IMG/VR virus record: IMGVR_UViG_3300021962_000496
Span: 1 to 28,454 of that record
DNA from: a virus
DNA length: 28,454 bases
Direction: 5' to 3' (one strand)
Positions 4,859-28,261 of the stretch are shown here, one piece after another (the first letter of the stretch is position 1; every line of letters begins with the position of its first letter). The notes below the pieces were generated by a model. It did no database searches and was not told where the DNA came from. It saw nothing but the letters and a program-made list of their open reading frames with translations. The translations under genes and the position numbers were made by a program.

Positions 4859-5581
4859 CTAATGGTTTTTGTGAGCAACATCATTTAAATCCGTCATAAC
4901 AACAACACAGTATTTAGTTCCTTCAATCATATCTAAAGATGCATGCTCATATATATAATTAGATGGAAAAATTGCTATATCTCCTACTTTTGGTTTATAG
5001 GCTAGTTTATCTAATCTTGGAAAATAAAGTTCTCCACCTTCATAATTATCATTAAGGTAAATTACAGCAGATACTGTGCATGCATAACTAGGTCCATGAT
5101 CAGCATGAATTCTAAATTGTTGTCCTGAACCTTTATATTTTACAAAATTAAATGCCTCATAGTAATTAATACCAATTCCCCAATAATTTGCATAGTCATC
5201 TATACATGATTTTAATACATTATAAATTTCATCATGCATTTCAATAAGATTTTTATTTTCTGAACTTATAGGGCCTAAATCTTTTGGTTTATATTTAAAA
5301 TCAGAGCAATCTCTTGCAAACTTAATAGGTTTGTTTGAGTTTGTTACTTGAGCCTCACTCCACTTCCATTGTGTCTGTCCATTAAGTGTTGATTCAAGAA
5401 TATCAATATATCTTTCACAATCATTTTTATTTATTGCATTTTCATATATATTAAGCCCTAATGCTGGATTAGTAACATTAATATTATTAAATTTTTTTGG
5501 AGGTAGTCTAAAACTTGCTGACTCTGATCTATCTTTTGAAAACCACGGATTGTCTTCTTCTTTTATTGATTCTTGATACAC
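4859..5581 (-). CDS. 2OG-Fe(II) oxygenase, prolyl 4-hydroxylase-like
   Basis: A 240-residue oxygenase starting at GTG 5581, supported by AGGAG seven bases upstream. Iron ligands are H159-x-D161 (RIHADHG) and H213 (YEHASL); K223 in EGTKYC is the 2-oxoglutarate contact. The core VIYLNDNYEGGELYFP is intact. It pairs with the 4142-4816 copy (RDCSDFKYK, EAFNFVKYK, SYACTV). It is the first oxygenase gene downstream of the Hint-domain tail protein. All residues needed for catalysis appear present. Confidence 0.88.
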   Translation of the reverse strand: MYQESIKEEDNPWFSKDRSESASFRLPPKKFNNINVTNPALGLNIYENAINKNDCERYIDILESTLNGQTQWKWSEAQVTNSNKPIKFARDCSDFKYKPKDLGPISSENKNLIEMHDEIYNVLKSCIDDYANYWGIGINYYEAFNFVKYKGSGQQFRIHADHGPSYACTVSAVIYLNDNYEGGELYFPRLDKLAYKPKVGDIAIFPSNYIYEHASLDMIEGTKYCVVVMTDLNDVAHKNH

Positions 5582-6942: not shown

Positions 6943-8937
6943 TTATGCTGATAGGTCGCCCATTACGATCCAAGTATCTGTTGCTCGTTTGAAAAGAGTT
7001 GCAGATGACCATTGTGCACGTAACTTAAGACCTGGAGTAGCATTAACTGTTACTCCTCCTGCACCAGCAATTGTTACTTGTCCCGAACCAGTTTGGATAA
7101 CATCAATTGATGTTCCTACTGGATATGCCACCGAAGAGTTCGCTGGGATAGTAAGTGTTTGTGCTGTTGACTTGCCCATTTCAATAACATTGTCTCTTTC
7201 TGTAAGTGATGAAAGAGTATAAGAATCTGTTTTTTGAACAATTGTTGTTCTTGAAGGTACGCCTTCTTTTGTTTGTGTACCGTCTGAAAATGCTACGCCA
7301 GATGCTGAGGCTGTTACAAGGCCTGAGAATGTTGGATTATTAATTACAGAAACTTGTCCACCTGTAACAGATATATTTGTTCCTGCTGTTATTGTTCCAG
7401 CACCTGAGAATTGTGTAAACTCAATTTCATCTGTTCCAACTGTTGTGATTACGTTTGTTTGTACCCAACCAGTTTTTCCATTTACTGTACCAGCCTCTAC
7501 GAAAATAAAGTCACCAGCATCTACTTCACCAGCACTATCATAATCTGTTGCACGAGTTGGTGCTCCAGATGCTGCAACGATGTAAATACCGTTTTCAGAC
7601 TTTGTTGTTTGGTTCTTAACAAGAATTCTGTTTCCTGTTGCAAGAGTTACACCGTCAAGGGTATCTCCATTTTCAACTGCGGAAGCAAGTGTAATGTTTG
7701 CAGTTGTTGCTGCGTCTACAGACTCGTGTACGTTAAGACCTGCAGTTGCTGCATCAACATATTGTTTTGTTGCTGCATGCATTGCACTTGAAGGGTCTGC
7801 ATGTAGCGTTACCGCACCCGTAAATGTTGCTCCCGAAAGACTTGCTTTTGCAGCAAGATCAGTTGTAAGGTTTGTAATATCAGATTGTGCGTGTGTATGT
7901 GACGATGAAGCCTTTCCATCAAGTTGTGTCTGAATTGCGGATGTAACGCCATCTACATAATTTAGTTCTGCAGTTGATGCTGTTACTCCATCAAGAATAT
8001 TAAGTTCTGCTGTTGAAGCGGAAATTCCATCAAGAACATTAAGTTCTGCTGCAGTTGCTGTTACATCTGTTGCTCCTGCTGCTAATAGATGGGTATGATT
8101 ACTATTTGCTTTTCCATCAATTTGTGTTTGAATACCAGAAGTTACACCATTAACATACGAAATTTCTGTTCCAGAAACATCTCCGATTGACGTAGTTGAA
8201 GGAAGAGTTACTGTTCCAGTAAATGTAGGGTCTGCTGATGTTGCTTTAGCATTTAGTTGTGTTTGAATTGGTGAAGTAACTCCATTTAAATATCCAAGTT
8301 CAGTATTGTCAAGACCTTCTATAGTGGCTTGCTTGCTATTTAACTGTGTCTGAATAGAAGAAGTTACTCCAGCAAGATATCCTAATTCTGCTGATGTAGC
8401 GCCAGTATCGCTAAGATTTCCAGTTGTAATTATTGTACCGCTAACATTTGGAATAGTTACAGTTCTATCTGCTGTAGGATCAGTTACTGTAAGTGTTGTT
8501 TCATAAGAATCTGCTGTTGATCCTTCAAATACAAATGAGTTTGTAACAGCAATTGTTGAACTATCAATTGTAGTTGTTGTTCCTTGTACTGTTAAGTTAC
8601 CAGAAACTGTTACGTTACCGCTGCCATCTGCAACAACAACTGTACCAGTAGCATCTGGTAGTGTAATTGTACGGTCTGCTGTAGGATCTGTTACGGCAAG
8701 GGTTGTTTCATAAGCATTAGCGGTAGCACCTTCAAAGGTAATGCTAGAGCCAAATGCTGGGTTTACTGTAGAAGATTGGTCAATAAAGTAGTCAAGGTCT
8801 GCCCAGTGATTAGTGCCATCACCAATCTTAAATTTATTGGTATCTGACTCCCATCCCATTTCACCTGCATTTAAAATAGGGTTTGCTGAAGTCCATTGGG
8901 CTGCAGTGCCTCTCCGTTGCTGCATTCTTGTTGCCAT
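6943..8937 (-). CDS. Long tail-fibre-type protein
   Basis: A 664-residue fibre protein. The N-terminus (QQRRGTAAQW, GEMGWESDTNKFKIGDGTNHW, residues 5-45) is the phage fibre/tropism-determinant start domain that probably docks to the tail. Two copies of a 38-residue module (FEGATANAYETTLAVTDPTADRTITLP-type, about 66-103 and 137-174) follow. Residues 183-345 hold repeats of the forms ELxxLxGVTSxIQTQLxxK and ASTAELNILDG. MHAATKQYVDA (about 382-392) is another common fibre motif, and the C-terminus is a beta-rich sandwich. The ATG has a good AGGAGG site and an extended -10 (TGTTATAAT) about 50 bases upstream. Fibres of this type are usually trimeric and bind the host. Confidence 0.8.
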   Translation of the reverse strand: MATRMQQRRGTAAQWTSANPILNAGEMGWESDTNKFKIGDGTNHWADLDYFIDQSSTVNPAFGSSITFEGATANAYETTLAVTDPTADRTITLPDATGTVVVADGSGNVTVSGNLTVQGTTTTIDSSTIAVTNSFVFEGSTADSYETTLTVTDPTADRTVTIPNVSGTIITTGNLSDTGATSAELGYLAGVTSSIQTQLNSKQATIEGLDNTELGYLNGVTSPIQTQLNAKATSADPTFTGTVTLPSTTSIGDVSGTEISYVNGVTSGIQTQIDGKANSNHTHLLAAGATDVTATAAELNVLDGISASTAELNILDGVTASTAELNYVDGVTSAIQTQLDGKASSSHTHAQSDITNLTTDLAAKASLSGATFTGAVTLHADPSSAMHAATKQYVDAATAGLNVHESVDAATTANITLASAVENGDTLDGVTLATGNRILVKNQTTKSENGIYIVAASGAPTRATDYDSAGEVDAGDFIFVEAGTVNGKTGWVQTNVITTVGTDEIEFTQFSGAGTITAGTNISVTGGQVSVINNPTFSGLVTASASGVAFSDGTQTKEGVPSRTTIVQKTDSYTLSSLTERDNVIEMGKSTAQTLTIPANSSVAYPVGTSIDVIQTGSGQVTIAGAGGVTVNATPGLKLRAQWSSATLFKRATDTWIVMGDLSA
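7903..8391 (-). repeat. Degenerate coding repeats in the long fibre (LDGVTAS / GVTSxIQTQL)
   Basis: Encodes residues 183-345 of the 664-residue fibre. At 7903-8052 the unit is about 33 bases (11 residues, ending ELNxLDG); farther upstream the unit is ELGYLxGVTSxIQTQLN. Closely related units recur at 10624-10848 in another fibre gene, giving scope for recombination between the two. Confidence 0.75.
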
Positions 8938-13086: not shown

Positions 13087-13612
13087 TTCTATTAATAAAA
13101 ACTTGTAAAGTTATTCTATTAGTAGATGATTTTACTGGTGTTATTCCGTGTAAATAACCTAAGTCATTAACTACAGCCTTATTAAATGTTGGAGTGATAT
13201 TTTTCCATTCCTGCAATTTTTCATCAAACCAATTAAACATTCCACCATCATTATATTCCCAAGAATTATTTAAATAAACAGTAATCGCTTTACTATACAT
13301 TCCATCTGCATGAACTGGAATATAAGAGTTTTTAGACCAAACATAAATCATTGCACTTTTTGATGATATTAATGGCTCATCTGTATTTGGATCAAAACAC
13401 ATTTGTGATTCAAGAATATTTTGTAATTCTTGTAAAAATTTGTCTGGTAATTTTATACATATAACAATGGAACTATCTCTTACTATATCTTTATTCCATA
13501 CCTGATTTGTCCAAATATGATTAGGCCCAGATTTTCCAGTAACAACATCTAGTCCAAAATTATAATATTGTTTTGCTAAATCTTCTGGTAAAAAATTATT
13601 TATTTCTTTCAT
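13055..13612 (-). CDS. 2OG-Fe(II) oxygenase, divergent copy
   Basis: 185 residues from ATG 13612, chosen because it forms an ATGA overlap with the upstream stop; a TTG nine bases earlier is the alternative. Iron ligands are H101-x-D103 (PVHADGMYS) and H155 (YLHGIT), with R166 (TNRIT) for 2-oxoglutarate. The core reads VYLNNSWEYNDGGMFNWFD where the other copies have LNDDYxGGELYF, so it is the most divergent of the seven, nearer to the Rps23/P4H-like side of the superfamily. Its 3' end overlaps the lysozyme gene tail to tail by 32 bases. It is separated from the main oxygenase cluster by the fibre genes. Confidence 0.8.
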   Translation of the reverse strand: MKEINNFLPEDLAKQYYNFGLDVVTGKSGPNHIWTNQVWNKDIVRDSSIVICIKLPDKFLQELQNILESQMCFDPNTDEPLISSKSAMIYVWSKNSYIPVHADGMYSKAITVYLNNSWEYNDGGMFNWFDEKLQEWKNITPTFNKAVVNDLGYLHGITPVKSSTNRITLQVFINRINQNNVASTL

Positions 13613-14217
13613 CTTAGCCAACTTACAACAGCGTATCTTGTTCCATCAATAACTGGAGAAACTGAATGATTATAAACATATGTAGATGGAAATACAATCA
13701 TTTGGTTTGCCTTCGGTTTAAATGTAATATTAAAACGAGGAAAACTAATTTCTCCTCCAGTATAATTTTCATTTAGATAATATACTGTAGATATTCTTCT
13801 ATGATATTTAGGACCATCGTCTATATGATTAGTAAATTGTTGTCCTAGCCCATATTTTAAAATACCGTAGGTGTCATGCCAATCTGATCCTATTTTATAC
13901 ATTGCCATATAGTCTTTTTCAATTGGATCAAAATGTTCAAAAAACAAATTGTTTAAATTAGTAAAAAATGTTTGGCTAGGACTACTTGGTATTAAATTTT
14001 CAATACCGCCCTTATACGGAACTCCAATTGAACTGGTGTCTCTTATTTTATATTCTATAGTATCTGATGATCCAGGTGCTGCTGCTGCTTTACCCCATTT
14101 TAATTTTGAAGAATTTATTCCTTCTTCAATTTCTTTATATAAATTATCACTATTTGGTATTACATTACTATAAATAACCATTCCTGGAGCAATTTCTTCT
14201 TTTATCATTTTTACCAT
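13609..14217 (-). CDS. 2OG-Fe(II) oxygenase, prolyl 4-hydroxylase-like
   Basis: A 202-residue oxygenase: H131-x-D133 (TNHIDDG), H184 (YNHSVS) and R194 (DGTRYA). KYGLGQQF, YYLNENYTGGEISFPR and VFPSTYVYNH place it with the copies at 4142 and 4859. The start is ATG 14217, overlapping the upstream zinc-ribbon gene by seven bases; an internal ATG three codons in is also possible, and neither has a strong ribosome site. With the next gene (ATGA overlap) it makes a second oxygenase pair, beside the cysteine-rich tail protein. Confidence 0.85.
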   Translation of the reverse strand: MVKMIKEEIAPGMVIYSNVIPNSDNLYKEIEEGINSSKLKWGKAAAAPGSSDTIEYKIRDTSSIGVPYKGGIENLIPSSPSQTFFTNLNNLFFEHFDPIEKDYMAMYKIGSDWHDTYGILKYGLGQQFTNHIDDGPKYHRRISTVYYLNENYTGGEISFPRFNITFKPKANQMIVFPSTYVYNHSVSPVIDGTRYAVVSWLR

Positions 14218-25282: not shown

Positions 25283-25441
25283 ATGGCAAAGTCAGCACTA
25301 TACAAGGTAGGCGACACCTATACCTCGCAAAAGAGCAAGGTAACAGGAACCATTATGGAGATTTCTCCAAACTCATCTGGCTCGGTGCGAGTAAAACTAG
25401 ATGTTGAGGGAAAGACCCGTTGGACAACTTGGAAGGCGTAA
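25283..25441 (+). CDS. 52-residue KOW/SH3-like small phage protein
   Basis: 52 residues from ATG 25283 with CGAAAGGAA upstream; the longer open frame would include the promoter. MAKSALYKVGDTYTSQKSKV and GTIMEISPNSSGSVRVKLDV form a small beta-barrel-like pattern (VGDxYxS...GxVxEI...RVKL). I recall similar proteins in many actinobacteriophages, without known function. It is followed at once by the first pseudoknot element. Confidence 0.65.
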   Translation: MAKSALYKVGDTYTSQKSKVTGTIMEISPNSSGSVRVKLDVEGKTRWTTWKA

Positions 25442-25467: not shown

Positions 25468-25498
25468 AGTCCTGAGCATGACTAGGATAAACTGCTCA
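25468..25498 (+). ncRNA. H-type pseudoknot element, copy A
   Basis: Stem 1 AGTC (25468-25471) / GACT (25480-25483); loop C; stem 2 TGAGCA (25473-25478) / TGCTCA (25493-25498); A-rich third loop AGGATAAAC. It lies between the stop at 25441 and the ribosome site of the gene at 25528, so it could act on either. Stem 1 differs from the other copies but pairs perfectly. Confidence 0.75.
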
Positions 25499-25527
25499 CC
25501 AAACCCCCACTACCCGAAAGGAATCCA

Positions 25528-25950
25528 ATGTCAAGAAGCAAAGCAATAAATGTAAAGATTGCCACAGCAAAGGTAATCAAAGCACTAGAAACTAAACTGG
25601 CAGAAATCAAGAAATTATATGCTCAGCAAGATGCTTTAGAGGCTAAGTACCAAAAGTCTTTAGAAAAGTGGAACAAAGATTTAATTGAGTTCGCACTTGC
25701 TAATATCAAGAAGGCTCAAGATGTTCGTACTAATGTGCGTACTTGGAGTAATCTTCTAAACATTGACTTTAATGTGCCTATCGTAGATGGCAAATATCCA
25801 GAAATGCCTATTCGTGACTTTGAGCAACTACACAAACACTCATATAACGAGATGGTAGAAGAAATTGAGAACGCAATTCGTATTCTCAAAATGACGGACG
25901 AGGAAGTTGTAAGCACAAGCACATACAACGCAATCGCTCGCTATCTCTAA
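25528..25950 (+). CDS. Coiled-coil protein of unknown function
   Basis: A 140-residue protein. Residues about 3-70 form a long charged helix (ATAKVIKALETKLAEIKKLY, ALEAKYQKSLEKWNKDLIEF), likely a coiled coil. Residues 73-100 carry a conserved-looking proline stretch (NVPIVDGKYPEMPIRDFEQL), followed by another helix. CGAAAGGAA precedes the ATG. It is flanked by pseudoknot copies A (upstream) and B (downstream). Family not recognised; helical scaffold or nucleic-acid-bound protein possible. Confidence 0.65.
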   Translation: MSRSKAINVKIATAKVIKALETKLAEIKKLYAQQDALEAKYQKSLEKWNKDLIEFALANIKKAQDVRTNVRTWSNLLNIDFNVPIVDGKYPEMPIRDFEQLHKHSYNEMVEEIENAIRILKMTDEEVVSTSTYNAIARYL

Positions 25951-25990
25951 GTTTCCTATACGCCCCTCTCTGGGGTACACGGGAATGAAC

Positions 25991-26018
25991 CTTCCTGAGC
26001 AAGAAGCAAAACTGCTCA
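25991..26018 (+). ncRNA. H-type pseudoknot element, copy B
   Basis: Stem 1 CTTC (25991-25994) / GAAG (26003-26006); stem 2 TGAGCA (25996-26001) / TGCTCA (26013-26018); third loop CAAAAC. It lies about 40 bases after the stop at 25950, in a 282-base gap, well before the next gene at 26233. Confidence 0.75.
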
Positions 26019-26145
26019 CTAAGTTTGGCTAGGCAGATGCCGTCTCGGTTGGCTGAATAGAGTTGCGATTCTAGATCTAAAAACTCGTTCCTAGTCATTT
26101 CATTTTTTGGGGGCCGGGACCATGTGACAAAAAACACATTTTAAG
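26019..26145 (+). other. Gene-free segment with hairpins and G/C box
   Basis: Between pseudoknot B and the next promoter. GAGTT/AACTC with an inner GATTCTAGATC hairpin lies near 26050-26078, then a G/C box (GGGGGCCGGGACC, about 26109-26121) followed by TGTGACA. A tRNA was looked for and not found. No ORF is supported. Confidence 0.4.
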
Positions 26146-26148
26146 AAA

Positions 26149-26202
26149 TGTCCAGAAACGCCCGAATTAAGATTAGACAATGTCAGCCCTATCTAGTAGT
26201 AT
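26149..26202 (+). promoter_or_regulatory. TGTCC box and probable promoter for the 26233 operon
   Basis: AAATGTCCAGAAACGCCCGA (TGTCC at 26149) lies 24 bases before TTAGAC (26173-26178); 18 bases on is TAGTAT (26197-26202). TAGAAT at 26203 is another -10 choice. The box is nearly the same as the one at 23309. Confidence 0.5.
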
Positions 26203-26232
26203 TAGAATATAACAAACGAAAGGAAACCCCGA

Positions 26233-26526
26233 ATGGATAACAAGCAATTCAGCAAGGTAATTGAAAATGCTACTGACGCAATCTATACAAATGAAATTCA
26301 AGATGAGGCAAGCGCACTTGTCGCAACAATCGCAGAAGGCGTAGACCTACAAACTATCATCAAAGAATTATTCTTATACTCGCAAGCAGTATCGGCTATG
26401 ACTTTGACTAAGATTCTTCACACCATGTATACAAAGGAAGAAGTAAATCAAATGATTGAAGCACACACAGACTCTATGGCAAATGAATTAGTTTCAGAAA
26501 TCGCAGACTACTTGGAGGCAAACTAA
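26233..26526 (+). CDS. Small helical protein of unknown function
   Basis: A 97-residue protein, acidic and helical throughout (KQFSKVIENATDAIYTNEIQ, ELFLYSQAVSAMTLTKILHT, MANELVSEIADYLEAN). It has CGAAAGGAAA upstream of the ATG. The stop overlaps the next start as TAATG. No family recognised. Confidence 0.6.
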   Translation: MDNKQFSKVIENATDAIYTNEIQDEASALVATIAEGVDLQTIIKELFLYSQAVSAMTLTKILHTMYTKEEVNQMIEAHTDSMANELVSEIADYLEAN

Positions 26527-26963
26527 TGTGGCAAGAAAATAATCCAATAGAAGAACCAAAGCCAGAACCACAACGCTTTGAGATTCCTATATTCATGGCA
26601 CAACTCAATACTAAAATCACAAACCTAGAAAATCAGGTTGAGCAACTAACAAAAACTGCGACTAGTAACTTTGATTTATACGCAAACTTACAAAAAAATA
26701 TTCGTGAGTTTCTAGAGAACAATCGTGAAGATGACAAGATTGAGTTTGATATTGACGAGGCCAACTCGTTCCTTGCCGAAAACTCTATTGAGCCACTAAA
26801 GCGTTTATACCTCGTTCAGTTTAGAATCGAAGGCGAGATTGAGGTAGAAGCAGAAAACGAAGATGAAGCACTAGGAATGGCTAATGAGTTAGAAGTATCT
26901 CATTGGTCTGCTGATGTAAAAACCTACGAGTGTGAAGGTATTGAAGTAGATACAACCTTCTAA
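26526..26963 (+). CDS. Acidic protein with coiled coil and C-terminal beta domain
   Basis: A 145-residue protein. Residues 25-65 are a coiled coil (AQLNTKITNLENQVEQLTKT). Residues about 95-145 (LYLVQFRIEGEIEVEAENED, EALGMANELEVSHWSADV) form a beta-alpha-beta unit of the DpnD/PcfM-like sort (xVxxxIEGxIEVEAENEDEAxxxA) seen in phage and plasmid proteins; this is a tentative recollection. It is coupled to the 97-residue gene by TAATG and followed by pseudoknot copy C. Confidence 0.6.
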   Translation: MWQENNPIEEPKPEPQRFEIPIFMAQLNTKITNLENQVEQLTKTATSNFDLYANLQKNIREFLENNREDDKIEFDIDEANSFLAENSIEPLKRLYLVQFRIEGEIEVEAENEDEALGMANELEVSHWSADVKTYECEGIEVDTTF

Positions 26964-27010
26964 TATTCCATCGGGGAATAGACCTACCACATGTCTTAAA
27001 ACTGGGTAAG

Positions 27011-27040
27011 GGACCTGAGCAAGTCCATGTAAACTGCTCA
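27011..27040 (+). ncRNA. H-type pseudoknot element, copy C
   Basis: Stem 1 GGAC (27011-27014) / GTCC (27023-27026); stem 2 TGAGCA (27016-27021) / TGCTCA (27035-27040); third loop ATGTAAAC. It follows the stop at 26963 and a TATTCC-atcgg-GGAATA hairpin. A G/C box (GGCCCCGCCCCC, 27051-27062) follows at once. Confidence 0.75.
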
Positions 27041-27103
27041 ATCAACTTCCGGCCCCGCCCCCTTTGTCCTATTTACGATGTGAGATTGATCACCCTTAAG
27101 AAC

Positions 27104-27132
27104 TTGACTTTGCAGCCCCTATGCTGTAAGAT
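27104..27132 (+). promoter_or_regulatory. Promoter of the DUF932 gene
   Basis: TTGACT (27104-27109), 17 bases, TAAGAT (27127-27132), then a 24-base leader with CGAAAGGAAA before the ATG at 27157. A match of this quality in both boxes is the best plus-strand example with a leader. Confidence 0.7.
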
Positions 27133-27156
27133 AGAAATACAACGAAAGGAAAAAAC

Positions 27157-28140
27157 ATGGCACACGAACTAGAACAAATCAATGGGCAAACCTCTTTTGC
27201 CTCATTTCGTGAACCCGCATGGCATGGTTTAGGAACTGTGTTCACCGAGGAACTCTCAACAAAAGAAATGCTAGACTTAGCAAATCTTAGCAACTGGAAT
27301 GTAAGACTAGAAGAAGTAACCCCTCCTGCTAATCTCACATCAGACAAAAATTATTTCTATGTAGTTCGAAATAATCCCGTAATCGATAATCAAAATGATG
27401 TTCTCGGAATTGTTGGAGAGCGTTACAATACTTTGCAGAATGAACAACTCTTTGATTTTGCAGATGCAATGCTAGATGGTGGCCGATGGGAAACCGCAGG
27501 CGCTATTCGTGGAGGCCGTGTAGTTTTCGGCTCTCTTGCACTAGAGCGTGAAACCGTACTAGACCCTAATGGTGTATCGGATAAAATCAATACCTATCTA
27601 GTTGTCAATACATCACATGACGGCTCAGTGTCTATTCAAGCAAGTGTTACACCTGTGCGTGTAGTATGCGCTAACACCTTGAACTTTGCATTGCGTAGTG
27701 TAAAGCAAACATTCAAGATTCGTCACACTCAAACCGCAAATGGCAAGGTTCAATCTGCCAAAACTGCACTCAACATTGCTAATTCCTACATGGATGACTT
27801 TAGCAAGATGGCAAACAAGATGATTCAAACCGAAATCACTGCACAAAAGTTCAATGATATTCTTCTCGCTGCTTATCCTAAGCCTGAGAAGGATTCAAGC
27901 AAAACTGCAATTACACGCTGGCAGAATAAGATTGACCAAATCAACGATATTTACACTGGCGAGTTTAATCACATGATTGCTGGTAATGCATGGGGAGCAC
28001 TCAATGCACTTACCGAAAGAATCGATTGGTATCGTGGAGATACTGAAACTAAGTTAGCAGCAGCAAGTGGATTTGATGTTGCTACTAATGCAGAAAAGAA
28101 TCGCTTACTAAAGATTGTAAATGATTTAGTAGCAGCGTGA
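27157..28140 (+). CDS. DUF932 phage/plasmid-like protein
   Basis: A 327-residue protein. The N-terminal part (MAHELEQINGQTSFASFREP, AWHGLGTVF) and the middle (YNTLQNEQLFDFADAMLDGG, WETAGAIRGGRVVFGSLALE, INTYLVVNTSHDGSVSIQAS, PVRVVCANTLNFAL) are characteristic of DUF932 (TIGR03299), widespread in phages and plasmids. The family's biochemical role is not established to my knowledge. The length is typical and the gene looks complete. It has its own promoter and ends just before pseudoknot copy D and tRNA-Asp, so the three may share one transcript. Confidence 0.88.
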   Translation: MAHELEQINGQTSFASFREPAWHGLGTVFTEELSTKEMLDLANLSNWNVRLEEVTPPANLTSDKNYFYVVRNNPVIDNQNDVLGIVGERYNTLQNEQLFDFADAMLDGGRWETAGAIRGGRVVFGSLALERETVLDPNGVSDKINTYLVVNTSHDGSVSIQASVTPVRVVCANTLNFALRSVKQTFKIRHTQTANGKVQSAKTALNIANSYMDDFSKMANKMIQTEITAQKFNDILLAAYPKPEKDSSKTAITRWQNKIDQINDIYTGEFNHMIAGNAWGALNALTERIDWYRGDTETKLAAASGFDVATNAEKNRLLKIVNDLVAA

Positions 28141-28144
28141 TAGA

Positions 28145-28173
28145 ATATCCTGAGCAAGATATAAAACTGCTCA
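28145..28173 (+). ncRNA. H-type pseudoknot element, copy D
   Basis: Stem 1 ATATC (28145-28149) / GATAT (28158-28162); stem 2 TGAGCA (28151-28156) / TGCTCA (28168-28173); third loop AAAAC. It begins four bases after the DUF932 stop and ends two bases before the 5' end of tRNA-Asp, so it could also influence tRNA 5' processing. Confidence 0.75.
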
Positions 28174-28175
28174 AT

Positions 28176-28249
28176 GGTCTGGTAGTTCAGTTGGTTAGAA
28201 CGCTACCCTGTCACGGTAGAGGTCGAGGGTTCAAGTCCCTTCCAGATCG
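28176..28249 (+). tRNA. tRNA-Asp (GTC)
   Basis: A full cloverleaf. The acceptor stem GGTCTGG pairs with CCAGATC (one G-T pair); the D-loop has AGTTGGTTAGA; the anticodon stem is CTACC/GGTAG with loop CTGTCAC and anticodon GTC at 28210-28212; the T-arm has GGTTCAAGTCC. The discriminator base is G73. No CCA is encoded at the 3' end. No promoter is directly upstream, so it probably depends on transcription through the DUF932 gene and on RNase P cleavage close to pseudoknot D. Confidence 0.95.
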
Positions 28250-28261
28250 CCCCAGCCTGGT

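Follow-up and report, generated by a model that had tools for sequence, protein, structure and literature searches.

The 28,454-nt stretch of DNA held as IMG/VR virus record IMGVR_UViG_3300021962_000496 (positions 1 to 28,454, analysed over its whole length and referred to as the window) carries four short, similarly built sites between positions 25,468 and 28,173, each behind the stop codon of a different gene. This arrangement raises the question of which RNA structure the sites encode and what it does at the 3' ends of genes. According to the sequence comparisons presented here, the four sites appear to be members of a large family of H-type pseudoknots in 3' untranslated regions (3' UTRs), which most likely (probability about one half) serve as compact barriers against 3'-5' exoribonucleases.

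Each site (copies A-D, Table 1) is composed of a stem 1, a single C as loop 1, a stem 2 crossing the first one, a single-nucleotide loop 2 and a loop 3 of 5-9 nt ending in AAAC in 4/4 cases. The pattern CTGAGCA-N(6-25)-TGCTCA has exactly four matches in the window, all on the plus strand (25472-25498, 25995-26018, 27015-27040 and 28150-28173); shuffled windows contain a mean of 0.01 matches, and 0/100 reach four. A sequence-blind geometry scan (4-bp stem 1, 1-nt loop 1, 6-bp stem 2, 1-nt loop 2, 3-12-nt loop 3) recovers the four copies plus two unrelated matches on the two strands, and the corresponding Markov controls yield about 1.1 matches per window with no pair sharing a common stem 2. 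The copies are spaced by 0.5-1.1 kb rather than arranged in tandem. They follow stop codons ending at 25441, 25950, 26963 and 28140, respectively; copy D has exactly 9 nt between stop codon and loop 1, while copies A-C are located 30-51 nt past the stop. Thus, the description given by the first-pass annotation of this DNA, i.e., four plus-strand copies with four different, perfectly paired first stems, located behind stop codons and in case of copy D immediately upstream of a tRNA, is borne out.

Both stems covary, in agreement with the proposed H-type pseudoknot with an A-rich loop 3. In a sample collected with a pattern of only 14 fixed bases, leaving the inner bases of stem 2 free, stem 2 pairs fully in 98 of 102 distinct matches (with Watson-Crick pairs alone in 75), and stem 1 is present in all 75 Watson-Crick-only matches. 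The compensated stem 2 variants TGAGTA/TACTCA and TGGGCA/TGCCCA are represented by at least 120 matches each, and the flipped version (TGCTCA/TGAGCA) by two rows across the whole collection; overall, stem 2 was encountered as TGAGCA, TGAGTA, TGGGCA, TGGACA, TGAACA, TGGGTA, TAGCCA, TGGCCA and others. In an alignment of 93 sequences, standard pairs occupy 96.6% of the pair cells and both-side changes occur in 190 cells versus 64 in shuffles, whereas sliding the partners by one column reduces pairing to about 25%. Ranked by mutual information, pseudoknot pairs from the two stems come first; rank six falls to another column pair and rank seven again to a pseudoknot pair. At the site orthologous to copy C in close relatives, 21 of which were found via the DUF932 gene, independently of the element, stem 2 reads TGAGCA/TGCTCA or, double-compensated, TAGCCA/TGGCTA or TGGCCA/TGGCCA. 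Since six of these 21 relatives have no element within the stretch covered, it is gained and lost.

Comparative data can hardly support an RNA structure more strongly than by such covariation. What the sequences show is an RNA pseudoknot selected for its structure and located on the 3' ends of unrelated phage genes. Homologs with compensatory changes in related phages, on which the initial proposal hinged, exist. The invariance of stem 2, also proposed initially, holds within the window of this phage but not across phages, where its changes are always compensated; the derived suggestion that stem 2 is recognised by its sequence conflicts with its wide covariation and was abandoned.

The element has the consensus NNNC-C-URNNYA-H-GNNN-(N)AAAC-URNNYA and a length of about 28 nt. 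Among 635 distinct copies, a sample fetched with patterns that had already fixed several of these features and thus described rather than independently measured by the following figures, 619 close stem 1 with a C-G pair, 630 have a base other than G in loop 2, 621 carry AAAC as the end of loop 3, and most measure 24 nt from loop 1 to the element end. The first base 3' of the element is G in only 2%. Both loops appear to be kept free of pairing in this way, since a G at the downstream position would pair with the loop-1 C, and a G in loop 2 with the C that ends loop 3. Variants with a 2- or 3-nt loop 2 but otherwise the same layout are found on contigs L002, L119, L023 and L066.

Hundreds of IMG/VR contigs share the layout, as do genome contigs from many bacterial phyla. 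Scanning IMG/VR with the exact stem 2 yielded at least 120 contigs, with most matches of the right length keeping the layout and differing in their first stems. Scanning one genome per species (84,980 species) yielded 106 stretches from many phyla, most of them with a stem 1 of at least 3 bp and about one tenth without, the latter resembling chance matches. The element is rare in cells (9/297 and 2/380 genomes in two phyla). Cultured strains with a copy include Lacticaseibacillus hegangensis 73-4, in which it adjoins phage-like genes. It was not found in about 14 completely searched named phages (T4, T7, lambda, SPO1, T5, N4, D29, phiKZ and others), which may explain why it was overlooked; likewise, by the pattern used, no valid element is present in a crAss-like phage or in phages of Streptomyces, Arthrobacter, Microbacterium and Mycobacterium that encode DUF932 homologues. 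Two single occurrences stand apart: a tandem of identical elements 48 nt apart in a Sneathiella bin (L149, 4178-4250, minus strand), the sole tandem case, and a well-formed element on a contig binned as Methanobrevibacter (L204, 377-402), an archaeal case unless the binning is erroneous.

With respect to genes, the nearest upstream gene is on the strand of the element in 532 of 617 cases. The distance from stop codon to loop 1 peaks at 9 nt (76 cases), followed by 10 nt (49), and is below 8 nt in only 2 of the 361 cases within 40 nt; for stem 1, the mode is 5-6 nt. This positioning ties the element to the gene upstream, at whose 3' end it starts just beyond the place that a ribosome on the stop codon would occupy. 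All three stop codons precede the element, with a preference for TAA (TGA 8% vs 27% in other genes) that persists in bins of guanine plus cytosine content below 50% and would suit strongly expressed genes. Longer spacers (16-90 nt) contain hairpins in 55/158 cases versus 18 expected, a threefold enrichment; in the window, three of the four copies have a spacer hairpin, the one upstream of copy B (CCCC/GGGG) being similar to the others (Table 1) and only 4 bp long. The distance to the next start codon varies, about 43% of the elements being located between closely spaced genes (start within 45 nt). Upstream and downstream proteins belong to many unrelated families, ArdA being among the upstream ones.

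Downstream, 39 of 600 elements (6.5%) have a tRNA on the same strand starting 1-13 nt away, compared to a tRNA within 40 nt for 0.9% of background intergenic points. Terminator-like hairpins follow the element about half as often as they follow other stops (20/363 vs 124/1200, p 0.005). On the Polynucleobacter-binned contig L128, a type III hammerhead ribozyme (7541-7595, minus strand) directly follows one element and, by reading of its core, would upon cleavage leave 5 nt behind the element; a second element of this contig, with the stem 2 TGAGTA/TACTCA, is located 270 nt away. In Clostridia (L151, L163, L183 and L221, as well as L140, the element of which lacks stem 1), a conserved hairpin (CCGCC...GGCGG with covarying inner helix) directly follows the element and could be a cutting or attachment element; three of these contigs also contain a DUF2800 RNA.

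The element was furthermore encountered in two settings of cellular genomes. In one of them, the TGA stop codon of a conserved micro-open reading frame (micro-ORF) of about 20 codons (e.g., MRWMFPHATHCSTCGSIRWS and MKRFTMPRTAHCSEGCKLKS; loci in Table 1) lies inside the pseudoknot. These loci possess a strong Shine-Dalgarno (SD) sequence, in several cases a sigma70-like promoter and often a terminator; they stem from bins of Desulfobacterota, Actinomycetota, Aminicenantes, Omnitrophota and KSB1, and the peptides scanned against NCBIfam matched no family. The other setting is formed by spacers of clustered regularly interspaced short palindromic repeats (CRISPR). In a complete Ignavibacteria genome (CP054675.1, about 1,029,051-1,038,714; L212 and L227), the element is present in 5 of 140 spacers, which all carry it in the same orientation and differ from one another in sequence or flank. 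The associated system is of the RNA-targeting type III-A (Cas10, Csm proteins and Card1-like effectors, plus Cas1). With the array direction deduced from that of the neighbouring cas genes, the CRISPR RNAs would be antisense to the element RNA, consistent with transcription of the element strand during infection. Spacer capture from RNA by a reverse transcriptase-Cas1 is unsupported, the cas-locus proteins scanned containing no reverse transcriptase domain; selection by type III targeting suffices to explain the element spacers. Other spacers of this array look terminator-like, and single spacers containing the element are present in L225 and L138, probably also in L145 and L178.

These properties may be accounted for as follows. 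A polycistronic phage RNA would be cut downstream of the element, by RNase P at an adjacent tRNA, by a self-cleaving ribozyme or by a host endonuclease, or be trimmed from its 3' end; the pseudoknot would then halt 3' trimming, so that the upstream cistron stays intact. The conserved loops would form tertiary contacts resisting unwinding, and the short, G-poor overhang would offer exonucleases a poor grip. In this manner, the element would act like a repetitive extragenic palindromic (REP) or puf-type intercistronic 3' stabiliser, at a size of about 28 nt and for phages that span many bacterial phyla. Because the element precedes tRNAs and the hammerhead, the pseudoknot would become the very 3' end of the message after cleavage by RNase P or the ribozyme, and this placement is the clearest hint of its function. 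A 3'-5' roadblock would explain not only the placement before tRNAs and the ribozyme, but also why the element lies close to stop codons, why gene identity does not matter and why terminators are fewer; the hairpin-filled spacers, the TAA preference and the type III-A spacers likewise speak for it. As known for 3'-protective structures, the element is positioned on the sense strand in 3' UTRs or between cistrons and is no intrinsic terminator; blocking of exonucleases and a longer half-life of the upstream cistron are predicted.

Several points weigh against a role as exonuclease block. A plain hairpin could serve equally well; that loop 1, loop 2, the AAAC end and the terminal pairs of stem 2 are strictly conserved suggests a requirement beyond bulk stability. 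For the roughly 43% of elements with a start codon close downstream no cutting event is known. In the cellular micro-ORF loci the element overlaps the stop codon, and the frequent intrinsic terminator should already protect the end. Finally, among the phages searched, no isolated lab phage carries the element. The more far-reaching view that this minimal pseudoknot with conserved loop-stem contacts represents a purpose-built nuclease block (a 3'-5' counterpart of viral exonuclease-resistant RNAs), and thereby a previously unrecognised phage RNA class that reached the phages of many bacterial phyla and was adopted by some bacterial micro-ORF genes, is put forward tentatively, at odds clearly short of even.

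Among the alternatives, a ribosome-directed function is rather unlikely, even though pseudoknots causing frameshifting sit at the same 5-6 nt distance that separates stem 1 from the stop codon at the mode. With the ribosome halted on the stop codon, the knot would sit where the mRNA enters and keep 70S ribosomes from sliding into the next gene after termination, or else aid termination or recycling; the TAA preference and the many copies between closely spaced cistrons agree with such an insulator. Against it, copies A-C of the window lie 30-51 nt behind their stops, copies before tRNAs and convergent genes lack a start codon downstream that would need insulation, and the micro-ORFs carry their stop inside the element. 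Slightly less probable still, and hence unlikely, is a binding or cleavage site (e.g., for processing) of a widespread RNA-binding protein or endonuclease reading the fold together with constant bases: the C-G closing pair, the loop-1 C, the non-G loop 2, AAAC and the U-A ends of stem 2 could provide such a signature, and the frequent location at tRNA boundaries would fit, but most stem bases vary freely and the hosts span many phyla with no common protein gene adjacent. A signal to RNA polymerase (pause, antitermination or pseudoknot-type terminator) is quite improbable. The 8 nt 3' of the element are indeed G-poor and pyrimidine-rich, and T-rich (at least 5/8) in 63/359 cases versus 9-21/359 in later windows; however, T-runs are as frequent when tRNAs or close genes follow as when the next gene is distant or convergent (p 0.19), a pattern incompatible with a terminator, and the G-poorness results partly from avoiding pairing with the loop-1 C.

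Some riboswitches and type III antitoxins are small pseudoknots. The gene 32 pseudoknot of T4, an autoregulatory operator, has the same fold class as the element (PMC3014915). Nevertheless, of the roles listed by the first-pass annotation, the 3'-end decay block fits best; an operator, a metabolite sensor, and an RNA serving as decoy or antitoxin to an RNA-targeting toxin are all highly improbable. Autoregulation by a single protein is disfavoured since the flanking genes belong to no common family and most protein-readable bases, including those of the stems, vary; a metabolite sensor, since the element keeps its distance to the stop codon upstream, not to a start downstream, and the genes have no function in common; an antitoxin or decoy, since copies are single rather than tandem and no common nuclease gene is adjacent. 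A DNA-level operator or recombination site without any RNA role, as the inverted-repeat character of stem 2 might suggest, is effectively refuted by nested crossing pairs covarying in both stems, by the tolerance of stem 2 for G-U pairs (112/635) and by the fixed strand relative to the upstream gene. Three further assignments were rejected: readthrough or frameshifting (TAA preferred, TGA avoided, no downstream frame served), an intrinsic terminator of hairpin and U-tract (T-runs do not track the downstream arrangement) and a preQ1-I-like riboswitch (no 5'-UTR position before functionally related genes).

The window, a virus fragment of 28.5 kb, has its tail genes oriented leftward and a group of small genes oriented rightward, ending in the DUF932-type gene; homologues of this gene that precede the element fall in Pfam DUF932. 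At least five window genes match the 2-oxoglutarate-Fe(II) oxygenase profile phrog_61, interspersed with the tail genes, a number unusual for one fragment.

Table 1. Coordinates of the pseudoknot copies and further features of the window, and loci of the micro-ORF genes
Feature	Position	Strand	Details
Pseudoknot copy A	25468..25498	+	Stem 1 25468-25471/25480-25483 (AGTC/GACT); loop 1 C 25472; stem 2 25473-25478/25493-25498 (TGAGCA/TGCTCA); loop 2 T 25479; loop 3 25484-25492 AGGATAAAC
Pseudoknot copy B	25991..26018	+	Stem 1 25991-25994/26003-26006 (CTTC/GAAG); loop 1 C 25995; stem 2 25996-26001/26013-26018; loop 2 A 26002; loop 3 26007-26012 CAAAAC
Pseudoknot copy C	27011..27040	+	Stem 1 27011-27014/27023-27026 (GGAC/GTCC); loop 1 C 27015; stem 2 27016-27021/27035-27040; loop 2 A 27022; loop 3 27027-27034 ATGTAAAC
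Pseudoknot copy D	28145..28173	+	Stem 1 28145-28149/28158-28162 (ATATC/GATAT); loop 1 C 28150; stem 2 28151-28156/28168-28173; loop 2 A 28157; loop 3 28163-28167 AAAAC
Short hairpin TTAGC-ACAC-GCTAA	25451..25465 (approximate)	+	Between stop codon and copy A, 2 nt before stem 1
Short hairpin TATTCC-ATCGG-GGAATA	26964..26980	+	Between stop codon and copy C
Small gene with copy A in its 3' UTR	25284..25441	+	ATG 25284 after SD-like sequence; mechanical open reading frame start 25226
140-amino-acid gene upstream of copy B	25528..25950	+	No PHROG match
145-amino-acid gene upstream of copy C	26526..26963	+	No PHROG match
DUF932-type gene upstream of copy D	27157..28140	+	phrog_1221
tRNA-Asp(gtc)	28175..28252	+	Begins 1-2 nt after end of copy D
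phrog_61 matches	548-1123, 1123-1869, 2016-2678, 4862-5581, 13612-14217	-	
Micro-ORF loci			L132, L137, L159, L170, L176, L182, L184, L188, L191, L193, L203, L210, L213, L220, L224, L230

Comparison with Rfam 15 revealed no match at gathering score. Relaxing the threshold to E values of up to 10 added none for a 3.3-kb stretch, and for single copies only 10-bit fragments of a microRNA model, in line with the initial impression that no named family fits. The model of STAXI (RF01728), the pseudoknot motif that the literature search brought up, recognised 0/12 element-bearing records above its cut-off (best 12.2 vs 40.5 bits). No paper on the motif was found in the literature searched, which did not extend to subscription journals and most preprints. 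The element is therefore regarded as a new RNA family with a likely role of a known kind.

Its closest functional counterparts would be 3'-protective structures such as the malE-malF REP, the puf stem-loop and the set of Dar and Sorek 2018; upstream cistrons gain stability from such 3' structures, malE-malF among them (PMC5927463). Shared with them are the intercistronic or 3'-UTR position, the lack of a favoured following terminator and the proposed stabilisation of the upstream cistron against 3'-5' exonucleases; differing from these bacterial operon stem-loops of varied sequence, the element is a defined pseudoknot with constant loops that occurs mostly in phages. The gene 32 leader pseudoknot of T4/T2 is likewise of the H-type, with two coaxial stems on tailed-phage mRNA (PMC3014915), but represents one 5'-leader operator bound by gp32, whereas the element is multi-copy, resides in 3' UTRs next to unrelated genes and is absent from T4. 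STAXI resembles it in being pseudoknot-based and near antirestriction or DNA-handling genes (cf. ArdA upstream of the element), yet is tandem, has UUCG tetraloops, occurs mainly in Enterobacteriales and spans 153 model positions (PMC2864571).

The topology, the 1-nt loop 1, the A-rich loop 3 and the distance of 5-6 nt from the decoding site are also those of the frameshift pseudoknots of RNA viruses; here, however, a stop codon, mostly TAA, occupies the decoding site, and no downstream frame needs the knot. ToxI and antiQ, the type III antitoxin RNAs, are small, phage-linked H-type pseudoknots as well, but the element has neither a tandem repeat array nor an adjacent toxin gene family.

The 3' ends of phage mRNAs and differential decay within phage operons are little studied beyond T4 and few model phages, and the element provides a 28-nt, covariation-proven handle on this process. 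If it targeted the ribosome or RNA polymerase instead, its occurrence across phyla would point to a universal partner. If it blocks exonucleases, it would be among the smallest such RNAs known and a portable mRNA-stabilising part for many bacteria.

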